From Owenia fusiformis (lineage: Eukaryota; Annelida; Polychaeta; Sabellida; Oweniidae), in contig CAIIXF020000001.1 in assembly GCA_903813345.2 (NCBI GenBank), positions 17,937,915 to 18,001,914 of the forward strand: DNA of 64,000 nucleotides, written 5' to 3'. The position numbers and the translations under genes are program-made. The notes beneath the pieces were generated by a model. That model was given only the letters and a program-made list of their open reading frames with translations, was not told where the DNA came from and made no database searches. Shown here in pieces: positions 27,367-41,781 of the stretch. Position 1 is the first letter of the stretch, and every line of letters begins with the position of its first letter.

Positions 27367-27412
27367 ATGCCTACTACGGAAGCCTCAGAGATCATGGGGC
27401 TAGAGAATCAAG
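27367..27412 (+). CDS. Proposed first coding exon of the Hox gene
   Basis: ATG at 27367 opens 15 codons ([15 protein letters not shown]) ending one base into the next codon at a good donor (CAAG|GTAAAA, 27413). Joined to the acceptor TTTTTCAG|GGGAG (exon start 27746), the frame runs straight into the ATGATG at 27754, adding GEP before MMDS. The intron would be 333 bases. The alternative is that translation starts at 27754 and this stretch is 5' UTR. The in-frame join with consensus sites at both ends favours an exon, but it is short. Confidence 0.5.
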
Positions 27413-30400
27413 GTAAAACTTTTCTTTATTAGATCTATGTGTTTGGATACTCTATGAGGTAATGTTTCTTTCAATGATTCGCATGTTAACTGCAAGGTGC
27501 GGCGTTACAACTCTAGCGATGATTGAACAGCGTAAAGTTGTGTGTATATTTTATTATGGCTAATGTTATCTCTTGTAGGACTACACTGGTCAATAACTTT
27601 ATATTGGCAGATCAAGAGGAGCGGCAATCCTCGAGTACTCTCTATCAGTGTTATTGCTTATCATTATGATCATTATGAGTGGTAATGTTGGGTGGTTTAA
27701 CATTTGCAACAACATTTATCATTTAGTTATGTCCCTGTTTTTCAGGGGAGCCAATGATGGATTCCACAACCAGTATCCTAGCTCGAACGGGACTCCAGTA
27801 TTCTGCTAGTTCAGTCACAGCCGCGGGATTAGCGGCGGGGCAGGCTCAGGACACACGAAGGACTTTGTTAGCCGCTGGGGCGGCTCAGAACGGGTGGCCA
27901 GGTGCGGGGGCATACAGTGCATCAGAAAGTTCCGCTCACACACCCTGCAACTTCCCACCGTATAGTAATCTAACGGCCTCAGCCAGTGCGAATGCACACA
28001 AAGCTAGCTCCTACCCAGGAGTTCCAAGTAGCATGGACTTGATGACCAACTGCCAACAAATGCAGCTAAATACCCTGAACTCTCTTCCCCCGCGTACATT
28101 TCCCTTCTATGGAGATATGTATCAACCTGGTCACGCAGTAATGGGCGGTGGGGGTATTTTCTCAGACCTCGCCCAGACCATGCCCGCCTTACCACGTTTC
28201 GACGACAGTGGAGCCTACCTAAACGATACATCAAACACAAGCAATGGTACGTATGCTATACATCATGGTGGTCAATACCCATAAAAAGTATCAATTTACT
28301 CAACAGCACGGTTGATATTACACTAGCACATTTTTTGTAGTAGAAGTGATGGTTATTTTGACGTATTCACACTAGAGTAATTTCCTTTCCATAAAATCTC
28401 TATAAAGTTGGGGCATCACAGAGATAATTCGGTTAACGATATATTTGGAAGAAATAAAAATGATTTATGCCTTAAATGATTGACACTTTGTTGTGTCATA
28501 GAAACTTTGTCTAAAAGATGGCGTGATATTAATTAAAGGTTGTTGTGTCATATTATAACATTCATCAATTATAATGATTGTTCCTTTTTGACGTTTATTA
28601 TCTAGAAGTGATAGACCTAAATCTTTCTGATACCCATGACAGCTCTTTGAGTAATTAAGCCTTTACACTTGACCAACCCTGTTATAATTTCAACTAATGC
28701 CTAATCGAATTCTCTGCCATTACCAGTGCAGTTGCCCCGCTAAATGACAATATGTTCAGTTACTTGCACTAGAATTGGCCTTTGTGGTAAAACACATTAT
28801 CATCAGTGGATTAAGAGATAACAATAATGCAGATCGTTCTCTCAATTCAATGCCTGGTAATTTGCATCATCTCCTTCTCCAGATGACCGTCCATTAAGAC
28901 TTGTCTTAATTGGTTTAGAGATGTGATACATCTCTCAAAATCACATTTCTGTCAAATAAGTGATTCCAGTATTTCCTAAAATCAATTTAGAACTGTAAAC
29001 ACGAAGTAAGAAAATGTTAGACCAAACAGTTTGGTGAAGGATTCTGAATGCGAAATGTACTTGTTGTAGATCTTTCAATTCATTTTAATCAGCAAAAATT
29101 TAAGGAATCAAATCTGTTTATAATCAAAGGGCTAAGCCGAATAATCTTCGATCATTCACATCTTTTCACAATCAGAAATTTTTATCTCTTTCCAAAGATG
29201 TTCAATGGTTAGATAAGTTTATAATACTGTGGAATCCTCAAAACTAGTATATTTTCAAAATCGGAAACTTTCAACTCCATTTGTGTTATAATCATTTCAA
29301 ACGTAAGATAAAAAAGCATTTATGCAGAAAAATACTTATGATCTACATATACTATAATGAAATCAACACAAAAATACTAAACACATAATGTACGCATATG
29401 AGGCAGTTAAAGTGAAATGAATCTATTCATATAGGATGAATCTCCAATATAATGTGTCTGTTTAATCGTGTAAAGTATTTTCACATTGTACAGCTACACT
29501 GATCAGTTTAATATGCTTTGATGTTGAGTTCCATAAATAATTAAGTTAAATCATCTTTCTCGATTGTTTCATACTGTTAAAACAATGTATTCCATCAGTA
29601 TTGATCAAGTTGGATTGTTTATACTGACTAGATAAATCTGAAATGTTATCGTGTTAGTTATATGTTTGGGATGGTCAATGTCTTCATTAAAACGGCTCTT
29701 TGTCTTTCCTGTGACTAATCACACTTAATAAAGGTAATACTAAATAGATGGAATAGATGCTTAATAGGTTCTTGTAAGACAAGAACATATGAGTCCAAAG
29801 CACACCAGGCTTGCGAATTTGCCTTATCTATGTGATACAACATAAAATACGCAAATGGAAAATCTGAGAATATAAGATATTCCAAAGGTAAACACACACA
29901 CAAGGAAAACATAAACACAATGTATAGTTCAATTTTTGGGTTTATAGGCTTTGGTGACTTCATTGCTCATAAAAATGATATGAATATTTTGGTCTCTGAT
30001 TTACTGAGCTGTGGAGAATGGCATGCACTTCATCCAAGCGACTGTCACCTCCCACCTGCCCAAAGGCAGTAGAGGGGTCATATTCTCCCTTGAGAGACTT
30101 CATGCTTACACTTCAGTTGCCATGACGATGTGATCAATTACCCCAATAATCTAATGACCACACTATAAGATTATAGGTTATCCTTTGTTTGAAAAACCTT
30201 CAAATGATCGTCTTGTTCATCTTTGTTTATTTCTTTTGGACTGCGATTAAAGATATTGTCAAATAGTATATCACTAGTTATTAATATTAAAGATTAAACA
30301 AACGTGAGAAAAATAAACAACTGTCGACGTAAATCAGTATTGTTAGTAATTATACCATTTTCCCTGTAAAATAACCGGTTGGTTGAGAGCCAGTGGGCAA

Positions 30401-33151
30401 CGGCTGTGCGTACTTTGACAAATCAGAAAAAGCTATAACTTCACTGAAGGAGTTGTATTCTATGATTTATCGGTTTGCACCCATTTGGCATCAGATCCAT
30501 GTGTTCAGGTCTATAATTATCAGAGGATAGTTCTCAACAATTACTATGCCTTTGATCTCAGTCATAAGCTGAAAATACTACGCGGCCGTTTCATAAAAAC
30601 AATGGTCAAAGTCCAGCTCACTCGGAAGTAATATCATTGCATTGCTCATTTGTAATATCCTTTCTTGAATGAGAGCAGATTGGAAGTAATTGCAGTTGAT
30701 AACATGCATAGAACGCATCAGTTCTCAAATCAGGATGTGTACATTCATTCATTCCCTGTGTCAGACTTTTCTCTACACAATATGCGTCAGATTTCCAGTT
30801 TTAATATGACTATTCTTTTATTTATTACTGTTTAATAGTTTACTTTTTACATGTTAAAAACATACAGAAAATAGAATCAATGTTTTGAGGGACAATAATC
30901 AATTTTCAGCCCCAAACGCCCAACATTCTATAATAGAATCTAATTGATTCGAGAGTACTCTGAAATAAATCATAAATTACATTCATTGAGAACGGTACAC
31001 AGGTTGCTGTTACGTAGATCTATTATGAACAGCCATCAAATAGCAATTCTAAACGCCGTGTTACCGCATGTATGTCTGAAATATGATTTAAAATGATCCT
31101 GAATACGTTTTCCAAGTGGCATTACGTTGGTTATGTGATGATAATGTACAATATAGTAGGTTTTGGAGCATATGCCATATGTGTCAAGTCATTTAGGATG
31201 ATCTATAGAATATGAAATATGGGAAAGAGATGTCAACTGAACACGTTGAACGTAAGCAGTTGGAGTTGCTGGTTCCAATTTTACCGCCACGTGTTCATCT
31301 CGTCAGGCCCGTAGCCAGGGGGGGAGGGGGTTCGATAGGTTCGAGCGACCCCCCCCCCCCCGGCCAAACATTCTTTTAAAATCAGCCAGTTTTTCACCAT
31401 TCTGTGCACATTTTAAGTGATTTGGCCATTTTTGGACCAAGATTGTCAAAAGTGAACCCCCCCTGGAATTTTCCAAAAAGTGAACCCCCACTTGACAAAT
31501 CTTGGCTACGGGCCTGCTCGTTGTCAATATTGCATACTGTATAGATACACCTTCTGCAATTAGGATATACCAACGACATTCCTTGACACAATTAATGAAA
31601 TACTTATTGATGTTAAGTTGAATTAGTTTGATTTTGTCAATGGCCATTTTGCCCTGTTCACATCTTTCACTAATCCGGTTGATGTCAAACAAATGAGCAC
31701 TTCGTGTAAACTTTTTGATTTGTTCCTCGTGGTCTGCATCATTCAAAGGATTTGTTATGGATGGTTTTGACTAGTACATTTTGAGAAGTAAATCATAAGC
31801 AAAGGATGCATGTTATAATTCAGTGTTTTATGACTGGCTATTATAGGAACTCCATTTGCTTTATATTGGGATTTGTCATGGTTCTGTCAAATATCTTACC
31901 TGTCACATTTTACAAATGCCCATTGTCTTACATGCTTAAGTATCTTTTTATAACAAAATTCACCTAGAGTTTCACATCAAGTGAAACATATAAATATCAT
32001 AGATCATTTTGACAATGTATCTTGAGTTTTACTTCAGGTGAAACATAGATACCATAAATCATTTTTGTTACTATTCATGGCAAGTTTGTTCATCTCTATG
32101 TGTCCTCTGTGCGAATGCTTTTACGAGTAAAATGTCACATACTTGTATACTCACGTTGTTCCCAACAAACCCACCCATTGAATAAACCCGCTATATTTCC
32201 ATAAGTCATATGAGAATAAGCATATGAATTACATGTTATTGCTGTCAAGGTATTTTACCGTTTTATTTGTTCAACTGCTAATTGTTTTATCTATGGTTTT
32301 CAGTTGGCAATTATTGTCATTCCCTAAAGCTACATAGTATATATTGCGTAGGTTTGTTACCACGGTGACCTGAGACTACTTTTTTAATTTTTAGGGTTCG
32401 ACAATTCTCTCAGTATTGAAAACACTGATATGGCCACGCCAAAATTATATGATGTGTGTTGTATTTTAATGAATATCACTTAGAAATTAGAGCTTCCATT
32501 CATGTTTTTGTGCAATGTCTCCTTGCAGAGCCCAGACAACGGAAGAAACGCAAGCCCTATACAAGGTACCAACTGATGGTATTAGAGAATGAGTTCATGA
32601 ACAGTAGTTTCCTAACGCGCCAGAGCAGGTGGGAAATAGCCTGCAAGCTTCAACTAACAGAGCGCCAGGTGAAAGTGTGGTACCAAAACAGGAGGATGAA
32701 ACGCAAAAAATTAAACGAACGAGCCAAGTCACTGACAGGCTCATCGCACGTGGGAGATACAGGGAACCCCTCAGGAGTGTTATCAGCATGACCAGTAAGA
32801 TAGAGTCCCGCCACACCATGCTTAGCATGTCTCACTCTTGCTAACTACGTGTATTTATAGATACTTCATCCATTTTCAGAACCACGCCAAAGAAAAAAGC
32901 GAAAACCATACACCCGGTATCAGACAATGGTATTAGAAAATGAATTTCTGAACAATAGTTATATCACAAGGCAGAAGCGTTGGGAAATATCGTGCAAACT
33001 GCATCTGAGTGAGAGACAGGTGAAGGTCTGGTTCCAAAACCGACGCATGAAGAGAAAGAAAATGAATGACAGAGTAAAAATGCTCGTCAAAGATGAGACA
33101 ATAAATGGCGTTGGAATGAGCCATGTTGAACCAAGTCACATGCAAGTGTGA
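27367..33151 (+). CDS. Posterior Hox protein (Hox11/13 type) with two alternative homeobox exons
   Basis: This is a homeodomain transcription factor of the ambulacrarian Hox11/13 group, expected to pattern posterior body regions by binding DNA in the nucleus. Proposed coding exons are 27367-27412, 27746-28246, and then either 32529-32791 (form A, 269 residues in total) or 32880-33151 (form B, 272 residues). All junctions have GT/AG borders and phase 1, and both last exons restore Glu-Pro-Arg-Gln at the junction. The N-terminal half is Ala/Ser/Thr-rich and has no YPWM hexapeptide, as usual in posterior Hox proteins. The two homeodomains share 49 of 60 residues and both keep W48, Q50, N51 and R53. 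Paralogue assignment (11/13b or c) is not secure. It could instead be read as a partial gene duplication in which only the homeobox exon was copied. No other Hox gene lies in the window. Confidence 0.85.
27746..28246 (+). CDS. Main 5' coding exon of the Hox gene (N-terminal region)
   Basis: Preceded by a pyrimidine-rich acceptor (CCCTGTTTTTCAG) and ended by the donor AATG|GTACGT at 28247. It encodes an Ala/Ser/Gly/Thr-rich segment with Tyr/Pro motifs ([17 protein letters not shown]) and a C-terminal Asn/Ser/Thr stretch (NDTSNTSN). It ends in phase 1. GC content is clearly above the surroundings. It contains no hexapeptide for PBC cofactors. Reading through the donor would stop at 28284. Confidence 0.85.
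28247..32528 (+). other. Large intron of the Hox gene
   Basis: A 4282-bp intron (4633 bp if the second homeobox exon is used), bounded by GTACGT and CCTTGCAG. Position is typical for Hox genes: one intron between the N-terminal exon and the homeobox exon. It contains a small transposon at 31304-31516 and otherwise AT-rich DNA. A reverse frame at 31303-31746 crosses the transposon and is not real. Confidence 0.8.
31304..31516. mobile_element. Small TIR element (CAGGCCCGTAGCCAG family) in the Hox intron
   Basis: The left end CAGGCCCGTAGCCAG is mirrored by CTTGGCTACGGGCCTG at the right end (one mismatch). The element is 213 bp and flanked by the 5-bp duplication CTCGT on both sides. It carries G- and C-runs and no coding capacity. 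A related, more degraded copy is at 54196-54318. Confidence 0.85.
32529..32791 (+). CDS. Homeobox exon A (first alternative homeodomain)
   Basis: The acceptor TCTCCTTGCAG ends at 32528. With the phase-1 G of the previous exon, the frame reads [15 protein letters not shown] and then a full 60-residue homeodomain. It carries [20 protein letters not shown], a recognition helix with W48-Y49-Q50-N51, RRMKRKK and a 24-residue tail ending GVLSA before TGA (32789-32791). Tyr replaces the near-invariant Phe at position 49. No polyadenylation signal lies between this stop and the next homeobox. CCA|GTAAGA follows the stop by three bases and could act as a donor to 32880. The frame is intact with no frameshift, so it appears to be under coding constraint. 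Confidence 0.8.
32795..32879 (+). other. Short spacer or intron between the two homeobox exons
   Basis: 85 bases from GTAAGA (32795) to TTTTCAG (ending 32879). It can be the 3' part of the large intron (form B) or a mini-intron in the 3' UTR of form A. No AATAAA in it. Confidence 0.5.
32880..33151 (+). CDS. Homeobox exon B (second alternative homeodomain)
   Basis: The acceptor CATCCATTTTCAG ends at 32879. Joined in phase 1 to the exon ending at 28246, the frame reads [15 protein letters not shown]. The homeodomain continues with [39 protein letters not shown] and MKRKKMN. The tail [20 protein letters not shown] and further residues end at TGA 33149-33151. This is the canonical ambulacrarian Hox11/13b/c-like homeodomain, with F49 intact, and likely the ancestral exon. 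An AATAAA (33100-33105) lies inside its coding part. Confidence 0.88.
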
Positions 33152-33982
33152 TCACGCATCAGCAGCGGGATTGTATATAAAAAGAGTCATACAAACGTGG
33201 GTGTGTACTGAATGATGGATGTGGATGAAATTAAGTGTTGATGGACTAGTATTTATAAAATACAATGTTGCAGTTGGAACCCCAACTGAGGAGGCTTTCA
33301 GGGAAGATAGTATTATTTGCCTCAACTTAAGGCGTTCACCAACTAACCATCGCTTCTGATGTTTAGAGTGTATATATTATAACATCATTTGCGAACCTCG
33401 GAGTCATTGAATTAAGCGGCAAGAAGCCGAGCATGGCTGGTGTACGCCATGGTATCACCACGTTGTACTTCCTTTATAGTAATAGATCGTTTAGGTGTAG
33501 AGTCGATATCTGTATAGTAAATATTAATATATTCTATGATTAACAAGTATATGTAGAAAAAAGCATTGTTTCGTGTGGTCAACCTATGTATTCTAAAGAC
33601 TATGTTCTCCTTGTAAATCACCATTAACATTTTCATTTGTATATAGATCATTATGAATAACATTTTTAAATGTCAAACCACTGCGAAACAGATCTGATTG
33701 TAAATCAGAAAGATATTTATTTGAAAAGTTCCAACAAGTTGTATGGTATTATGAATATGTGTGCTTTATCGTAGTTTAAATGCTAAATTACGGACGAGTT
33801 AATTGCGGGTTAAATATATTATGATATGTTTCATTGTGGGAGTTTACATAAAATCCTCATTTAGTAAACATAAACACCGCCATGGAATATAGAATATACG
33901 CTGATTAATCATTGGGTTGATTTTTATAACTGATCCTAAAGGGATATACATCTCTCGTAAAGTCTACCAGGACTGTAATAAA
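33152..33982 (+). other. Probable 3' UTR of the Hox gene
   Basis: The first canonical AATAAA after the exon B stop is at 33977-33982, giving a 3' UTR of about 0.85 kb. Another AATAAA lies at 34104-34109. A reverse frame at 33412-33663 is unsupported. Confidence 0.4.
33977..33982 (+). terminator. Candidate polyadenylation signal
   Basis: AATAAA, the first such hexamer downstream of the exon B stop codon. An alternative signal lies at 34104-34109. Confidence 0.35.
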
Positions 33983-40269: not shown

Positions 40270-41781
40270 AGCGAGCTATCAACGGAAATAACAGCCTTAA
40301 AAAATACAGCCGCGCCAGGCCTTGATGGGTTCAAGGCTGATATAATAAAATCTGTTGGTGCTTATCTCGTCAGGCCACTACTATATATCTTCAATCTCTC
40401 ACTATCAACTGGAACATTTCCCAATCAATTAAAAGTAGGAAAAGTCACACCAATTTTCAAAAAGGGAGATACTCAGCTCTTTTCAAATTACAGGCCCATT
40501 TCAGTGTTATCCGTATTTTCAAAATTACTCGAGAGATGCGTACACTCTCGCCTTGTAAGCTTTCTAAACAAATTTGAAATACTTTATAAAAACCAATTTG
40601 GTTTCCAGAAGAAAAAGTCTACATACATGCCACTTCTAGCTTTTATTGAAAAGATAAGATGTGCAAATGAAAGCAAAATTCCTTCACTAGGGATATCATT
40701 AGACTTCTCAAAAGCATTTGACACTATTGATCATAATATATTATTAGATAAACTCTCACACTACGGAATGCGCGGTGTTACCCTTTCCTGGTTTCAAAGT
40801 TACTTAACTCAACGTCTTCAGACTGTTATTTCTAATGGCTGTAAATCGAAACAAACCTCATTATCTCATGGTGTCCCTCAAGGTTCAGTGCTTGGTCCTA
40901 TTTTATTTCTTCTTTACATAAATGACATCTACAAATCCTCTGATTTCTTTGAATTCATACTATTTGCTGATGATACCAATCTCTTGGCCTCTCACAAAGA
41001 TTTACCCACTCTATTTGACACCGCAAATGAAGAACTTTCAAAGCTCAGTGACTGGATCAATGCCAATAAACTTTCTTTAAACATTGACAAAACTAAATGG
41101 ATTCTCTTTGGACCAGGTAAAACTTCTAACAATCATTTTCTCAAAATAAATGACACCAAACTCAAGCAAGACATCACTATATCTTTCTTAGGAATAGCTA
41201 TTGATGCCAATTTAACTTTCAAAGAGCATATCAAAAACTTAGAAAAAAAGATTTCTCAGTGCATTGGGGTCTTGTATGGAGTCCATAATCTTTTAACAAA
41301 AAGTGCTTTGCTCAGTATATACTACTCTCTTATTCACTCTCAACTCAATTACTGCAATATTATTTGGGGTAACAACTACAAATCTTATCTTAATAAAATT
41401 CACATGATTCAAAAACGATTTGTTCGCATTGTTTTAGGAAAAAAATACCTTGATCATACAGCTCCATTATTCAAAGAACTTAATCTTCTGAATATATATG
41501 ATATAAATAAGCTGAATACAGCAATTTTCATGTACCAAGTAAAAGATGGTGACCAAATACTAAATTCTCTACTCGATACAAATTTCCAAATAAACTGTGA
41601 TACACATAGTTATAATACCCGCCAATGTGACAACTTCCATATTGAACATGCGAACAAATTTTCCATAAAACGGAATGGGCCTTCACTATGGAATTCTCTT
41701 AAAAATTCCACAAAAATGTCAAAATCTATAACCTCCTTTAAAAAGGCCTACAAATCTGACCTCTTGTCAAGCTACTTATAA
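40270..41781 (+). CDS. LINE reverse transcriptase, partial (5'-truncated ORF2)
   Basis: An uninterrupted frame of 503 codons without its own natural start: it opens after a stop at 40267-40269 where the element is truncated. Order of motifs: APGLDGF (finger), VGKVTPIFKKGD, NYRPISVLSVFSKLLER, motif A LDFSKAFDTIDH, motif B HGVPQGSVLGPILFLLYIND, motif C FADDTNLLAS with the catalytic aspartates intact, then thumb and C-terminal region (HSQLNYCNIIWG, IQKRFVRIV). This is the reverse transcriptase of a CR1/Jockey-type LINE, which copies its RNA at a nicked target. The apurinic endonuclease domain is absent, so this copy is not autonomous. The lack of stops or frameshifts suggests recent insertion. 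Confidence 0.9.
   Translation, partial: SELSTEITALKNTAAPGLDGFKADIIKSVGAYLVRPLLYIFNLSLSTGTFPNQLKVGKVTPIFKKGDTQLFSNYRPISVLSVFSKLLERCVHSRLVSFLNKFEILYKNQFGFQKKKSTYMPLLAFIEKIRCANESKIPSLGISLDFSKAFDTIDHNILLDKLSHYGMRGVTLSWFQSYLTQRLQTVISNGCKSKQTSLSHGVPQGSVLGPILFLLYINDIYKSSDFFEFILFADDTNLLASHKDLPTLFDTANEELSKLSDWINANKLSLNIDKTKWILFGPGKTSNNHFLKINDTKLKQDITISFLGIAIDANLTFKEHIKNLEKKISQCIGVLYGVHNLLTKSALLSIYYSLIHSQLNYCNIIWGNNYKSYLNKIHMIQKRFVRIVLGKKYLDHTAPLFKELNLLNIYDINKLNTAIFMYQVKDGDQILNSLLDTNFQINCDTHSYNTRQCDNFHIEHANKFSIKRNGPSLWNSLKNSTKMSKSITSFKKAYKSDLLSSYL

Follow-up and report, generated by a model that had tools for sequence, protein, structure and literature searches.

We propose that the homeobox exon of a Post2 gene was tandemly duplicated long ago and that a common 5' part, ending in a single phase-1 donor, is spliced to either of the two copies (termed here A and B) to give two proteins, a reading to which we assign a probability of about 0.8. 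The gene lies in the window, i.e. the whole stretch of 64,000 nucleotides that was analyzed (C1:17937915-18001914); genome searches covered the assembly of 498,259,871 bases in 525 contigs. Two homologous homeobox exons face one splice partner (Table 1): both acceptors match the phase-1 donor at 28246, and each exon continues in frame from the final base of exon 2. The preliminary description of this DNA had already reported a single 5' exon set ending in phase 1 at this position and two downstream exons that continue it in frame, each with a complete 60-residue homeodomain and its own stop; phases, acceptors, frames and stops all held on re-examination, and the homeodomains reached profile scores of 72.2 bits (A) and 78.1 bits (B) at a cut-off of 22.9, by which a chance likeness to homeodomains is ruled out. 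Exon 2 comprises 501 bases, forms a single open frame with exon 1, and has a G+C content of 54% vs 34% in the intron downstream. Exon 1 is supported less firmly than exon 2, as in-frame ATGs occur near the start of the latter.

Table 1. Features of the Post2 locus, in positions of the window; a slash marks the exon boundary.
Feature	Positions	Strand	Remarks
Post2 exon 1, coding part	27367..27412	+	donor AAG/GTAAAA, phase 1; exon and start codon predicted
Post2 exon 2, N-terminal region common to A and B	27746..28246	+	open frame of 166 codons; phase-1 donor ATG/GTACGT
Intron preceding exon A	28247..32528	+	4282 bases
Homeobox exon A	32529..32791	+	acceptor ...CTCCTTGCAG/AG, first exon base 32529; whole homeodomain with Tyr49 (WYQNRR); own C-terminus and stop (32789-32791); 87 aa counted from the split codon
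Spacer from A stop to exon B	32792..32879	+	88 bases; acceptor CATTTTCAG
Homeobox exon B	32880..33151	+	acceptor ...CCATTTTCAG/AA, first exon base 32880; whole homeodomain, the more canonical of the two copies; own C-terminus and stop (33149-33151); 90 aa counted from the split codon

Both predicted acceptors are ordinary and canonical. According to a crude splice-site score they tie at the third-highest value among 240 AGs, with two AGs scoring higher and at least four others tied with them, and judged by eye they share phase 1 with the likeliest acceptors of the homeobox exons in the neighboring Lox2 and Lox4. Upstream of exon B there is a branch-point-like CTAAC, whose A at 32844 lies 36 bases before the exon. 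Since no in-frame ATG precedes either homeobox within its stop-to-stop frame, each of them needs an upstream exon. None of the homeodomain matches listed reveals a further homeobox in the long intron.

In the simplest model of the switch, two 3' splice sites would compete for a single donor, which would be joined either to acceptor A or to acceptor B. Exon A supplies its own stop, and the bases between that stop and exon B contain none of the four polyadenylation hexamers sought (AATAAA, ATTAAA, AGTAAA and TATAAA), so the A transcript would most likely include B, in part or in whole, in its 3' untranslated region. The first AATAAA past the A stop is found at 33100, within the coding part of B, and the A transcript might end near it or further on. 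We also considered a protein that contains both homeodomains in tandem. In addition to the stop in A, such a fusion is made unlikely by the lack of any phase-1 GT in exon A downstream of the homeodomain, as its sole phase-1 GTs (32604 and 32607) fall inside the homeodomain. We infer the use of both junctions, its regulation and a functional difference between the products from the arrangement of the exons.

A recount of the two homeodomains agrees with the earlier figure of 49 identical residues out of 60. The differences are located at positions 13, 21, 23, 25, 26, 30, 35, 39, 41, 49 and 59; they spare positions 47, 50, 51 and 54 as well as the arm up to position 12, and it is positions 47, 50, 51 and 54 together with the N-terminal arm that read bases in homeodomains. 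The C-terminal tails of A and B differ. The two proteins would thus have in common the N-terminus and the core residues with which helix 3 and the N-terminal arm read bases, while differing in 11 homeodomain positions and in the tail. Position 49 is occupied by Tyr in A and by Phe in B and in all seven comparison homeodomains; Tyr49 occurs in BarH proteins too. Exon A differs from the comparison homeodomains (n=7) at more sites than B does, and at the sites that distinguish the two copies only B matches all seven at positions 23, 25 and 49, while only A does so at position 41. To judge from these residues, A has changed more, yet B is not simply the ancestral form. The closest match of known structure is Abd-B for both copies (74.0 bits for A, 80.7 bits for B). 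A search of a structure library with the helix containing Tyr49 returned, among the five matches listed, alignments to Phe49 proteins only. Structure prediction from single sequences gave the three-helix layout for A and B with middling confidence (mean pLDDT 71.4 and 65.4, respectively) and adds little. A and B are expected to recognize similar sites but to differ in affinity, in backbone contacts or in partners; because the 11 differences avoid the base-reading positions, altered affinity or partners would be likelier than a new core motif.

The duplication happened long ago, and selection has maintained A as well as B. In the 68 codons that can be aligned between A and B, 54 residues are identical, and the same codon is used in only 20 of these 54. 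The copies differ in 67 of 204 aligned coding bases (16 at first, 8 at second and 43 at third codon positions), only two of the ten fourfold sites common to both agree, and the NG86 method gives dN of 0.165 with dS undefined due to saturation. In a neutral simulation (5000 runs), in which the A branch alone drifted until 43 third positions differed, 8.5 of the 68 residues were kept on average and 24 at most, compared to the 54 observed, and the frame stayed open in 120 runs, as it is in A. Together with the saturated synonymous sites, these results imply that A and B have remained protein-coding for the greater part of the time since they separated. A rough yardstick, which gives no date because the rates may differ, is provided by Lox2 and Lox4 in this genome: their homeodomains share 50 of 60 residues, compared to 49 for A and B. 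The origin of Lox2 has been placed, in one of two readings given in the available part of the source, in the common ancestor of annelids, nemerteans and molluscs (PMC7011278). No relatives of exon A were found in viral contigs, nor of the A-B alignment in bacterial and archaeal genomes, as expected for an animal gene.

These data bear on the alternative raised in the preliminary description, namely that the duplication is real, that only B is spliced in, and that A is a silent or dying relic. The lower Abd-B score of A, its odd Tyr49 and its more derived sites would suit such a relic, but the frame of exon A is open, its acceptor is canonical, and amino acids were conserved there while the synonymous sites became saturated. 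With neutral decay since the duplication excluded by the simulation, a silent A would fit only as a recent loss of use, and we consider it unlikely. Still less probable is a pair of separate genes, in which A or B would be served by a promoter and 5' exon of its own, located in the 4.3 kb intron or at another site. Multiple promoters can occur at posterior Hox genes in other animals, and a small unrecognised 5' exon would be compatible with the sequence; on the other hand, the two homeodomain matches are 180 bases apart, with only the short spacer between the A stop and exon B, both copies need the identical incoming phase, and exon 2 gave a single match in the genome search, although a missing match is not proof of absence. 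Finally, mis-assembly or haplotypes collapsed in tandem can yield tandem near-duplicates, but this possibility, also mentioned in the preliminary description, can be practically dismissed, since 67 of 204 differing bases is far above allelic difference, the C-terminal tails are different, and when the assembly was searched with the DNA of 32400-33200, the sole match was this place, with no second haplotype copy (again, a missing match being no proof of absence). The preferred reading thus remains a single Post2 locus in which one donor would serve two homeobox exons.

The identity of the gene was deduced from its neighborhood. Ten Hox loci, all of which were translated, follow one another in order along the + strand of C1, with the window gene outermost; the nine that follow we take to be Lox2, Lox4, Antp, Lox5, Scr, Dfd, Hox3, pb and lab, based on signature residues (Lox5- and UbdA-type peptides) rather than on a tree. 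Posterior-type genes were sought among 19 translated homeodomain matches (out of at least 139), and a Post1-like homeodomain was found on C1, 39 Mb from the cluster. The preliminary description had named the gene Hox11/13 and assumed an ambulacrarian host. An ambulacrarian cluster is characterized by several Hox11/13 paralogs together with Hox9/10, while translation of the present cluster reveals a single posterior locus, followed inward by two genes of the central class with UbdA-like peptides. Because the cluster is lophotrochozoan (lab to Lox2, with the Post1-like gene at a distance), we identify the window gene as a lophotrochozoan, annelid-type Post2, a member of the posterior, Abd-B-like Hox class. 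Of the earlier reading as an alternatively spliced gene, the single locus, the common 5' part and the two usable homeobox exons are retained, while the name and the host have to be replaced.

In agreement with this assignment, the gene adjoins Lox2 at the posterior end of the lab-to-Lox2 cluster and has a posterior-class homeodomain starting with RKKRKPY (both A and B read QRKKRKPY), a motif that served as a degenerate primer site for the isolation of Post1 and Post2 from Capitella, according to the sections available (PMC2603591). The match of the pb-like homeodomain stops at profile position 51, as expected if an intron interrupts the homeobox, and an intron within the homeobox is described for Capitella pb in the same sections (PMC2603591). 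The ten clustered Hox loci and the Post1-like locus fit the layout published for Owenia fusiformis, for which the available part of the genome paper gives 12 chromosome-scale scaffolds and 11 Hox genes, the cluster being ordered and located on chromosome 1, where Post1 lies further downstream (PMC9977687); the word Post2 is absent from its main text. The host is most likely this annelid or a close relative of it. In the assembly analyzed, 278 of the 284 listed domain matches (homeodomain, zf-C4, T-box, forkhead and Ets) are located on C1-C12. Two other elements were seen in this part of C1: a Gbx-like homeobox (C1:18962559), 494 kb past lab and on the same strand as the Hox cluster, and, between Post2 and Lox2 and hence inside the cluster, a 503-codon open frame (window 40270-41781) that by eye resembles the reverse transcriptase of a non-LTR retrotransposon.

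We also scanned the genome for other tandem exons encoding DNA-binding domains, using at least 139 homeodomain matches (150 of 218 candidates were scored). Among the matches listed there are 27 same-strand pairs within 5 kb, and three close pairs (less than 300 bases apart, overlapping in the profile and in different frames), which belong to Post2, to the gene of the Hox cofactor PBX, and to a gene we call POU6-like, a name based on its residues. The PBX/Extradenticle gene (C6:27585081-27600340) contains tandem PBC exons, separated by 58 bases (hand-counted), the first of which has a GC donor, and tandem exons that encode the beginning of the homeodomain. The latter are two 136-base exons located 351 bases apart (lengths hand-counted) and share one downstream exon (VSNWFGNKR); as 136 is not a multiple of three, joining both of them would break the frame. 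The POU6-like gene (C7:7976218-7981167, minus strand) contains tandem POU-specific exons, about 50 bases apart (hand-counted), and two terminal homeodomain exons with their own stops behind one phase-1 donor; this recurrence of the plan seen in Post2 speaks for the reading proposed for the latter. The PBC exons, as well as the POU-specific exons, would be mutually exclusive, since gaps of only 58 and 50 bases could probably not be removed by splicing. In a comparison of the five exon pairs (six hand-chosen segments), the identities were 54/68 for Post2, 34/46 for the PBX homeodomain, 31/33 and 26/27 for PBC, 40/45 for the POU-specific domain and 30/40 for the POU homeodomain. The NG86 dS was undefined due to saturation in five of the six segments; for the POU-specific segment it was 2.18, with 7 of 13 fourfold sites agreeing. 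A speculative extension, which we regard as rather doubtful, is that in this lineage splicing, besides gene number, sets Hox identity, with the ancient alternative DNA-binding exons of Post2, PBX and the POU6-like gene providing a combinatorial Hox-PBX isoform code.

The other families were judged by eye from the match tables, which hold 66 zf-C4, 24 T-box, 38 forkhead and 17 Ets matches. For zf-C4 there is a looser pair of overlapping nuclear-receptor zinc-finger matches (C8:15137543 and 15139299) on the same strand, separated by about 1.6 kb, which may represent an exon duplication. A pair of T-box matches on C11 is separated by about 380 bases, and its upstream member is interrupted by stops. 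No comparable tandem pairs were seen by eye among the forkhead and Ets matches. The homeodomain matches further include arrays of TALE-type homeoboxes that resemble one another, mostly in long open frames (C5:39469706-39483441 and C1:58459690-58471199), which possibly correspond to the spiralian TALE expansion, and four homeodomains in one 1717-codon frame (C262:14791-17163), at a guess a zinc-finger homeobox gene.

The diversification of Hox genes has been attributed to whole-gene duplication, to regulatory change, and to small isoforms with altered linkers or N-termini, while each gene is taken to have a single homeodomain. If our reading of Post2 is correct, exchange of a complete homeodomain by splicing, maintained until the synonymous sites were saturated, would add a further way in which Hox proteins diversify. 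Such a gene would also lend itself to a clean test, in which the promoter and the N-terminus are constant, and only the homeodomain and the tail vary. Hox inventories that count one homeobox per locus, as well as probes on the common exon, could then miss isoforms.

Known Hox isoforms include those generated by the Ubx micro-exons, the m and r forms of Abd-B, and the homeobox-less forms of HOXA9. They resemble the proposed Post2 isoforms in that one Hox locus gives several proteins, but differ in that the linker or the N-terminus is varied, or the homeodomain is dropped. To our knowledge, no Hox isoform swaps one complete homeodomain for another, and in the open-licence literature searched, mostly at listing level, we found no description of a Hox gene with alternative homeobox exons. 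The closest counterpart of the gene itself is Capitella CapI-Post2, which, in the sections available, is likewise a posterior Hox gene that adjoins Lox2 at the end of the cluster, has a homeodomain starting with RKKRKPY, and consists of multiple exons with one long intron, of 2,905 bases in Capitella, the last short intron being 147 bases (PMC2603591). It differs in that those sections mention no second homeobox exon or isoform, and the words "isoform" and "alternative" are absent from the main text (PMC2603591); the terms "isoform", "splic-" and "exon" are similarly absent from the available part of the Alitta virens paper.

The nearest precedent for the exon arrangement is unc-62 (Meis/Homothorax) of C. 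elegans, whose alternatively spliced exons 7a and 7b encode the N-terminal region of a TALE homeodomain (PMC3585033). According to the available part of that study, the two isoforms differ in their tissue distribution, and a yolk-protein reporter is lowered by RNAi directed at 7a but not by RNAi directed at 7b (PMC3585033). In both cases a single homeobox gene has two versions of a homeodomain-coding exon, for Post2 as judged by exon structure. On the other hand, unc-62 is, as described there, a TALE cofactor gene in which part of the homeodomain is swapped, while Post2 is a Hox gene in which the exchange would extend to the entire homeodomain together with the C-terminus and its stop. Alternative homeodomain exons are therefore already known from unc-62; the structure of Post2 suggests that they occur in a Hox gene as well, which is apparently new and unexpected.
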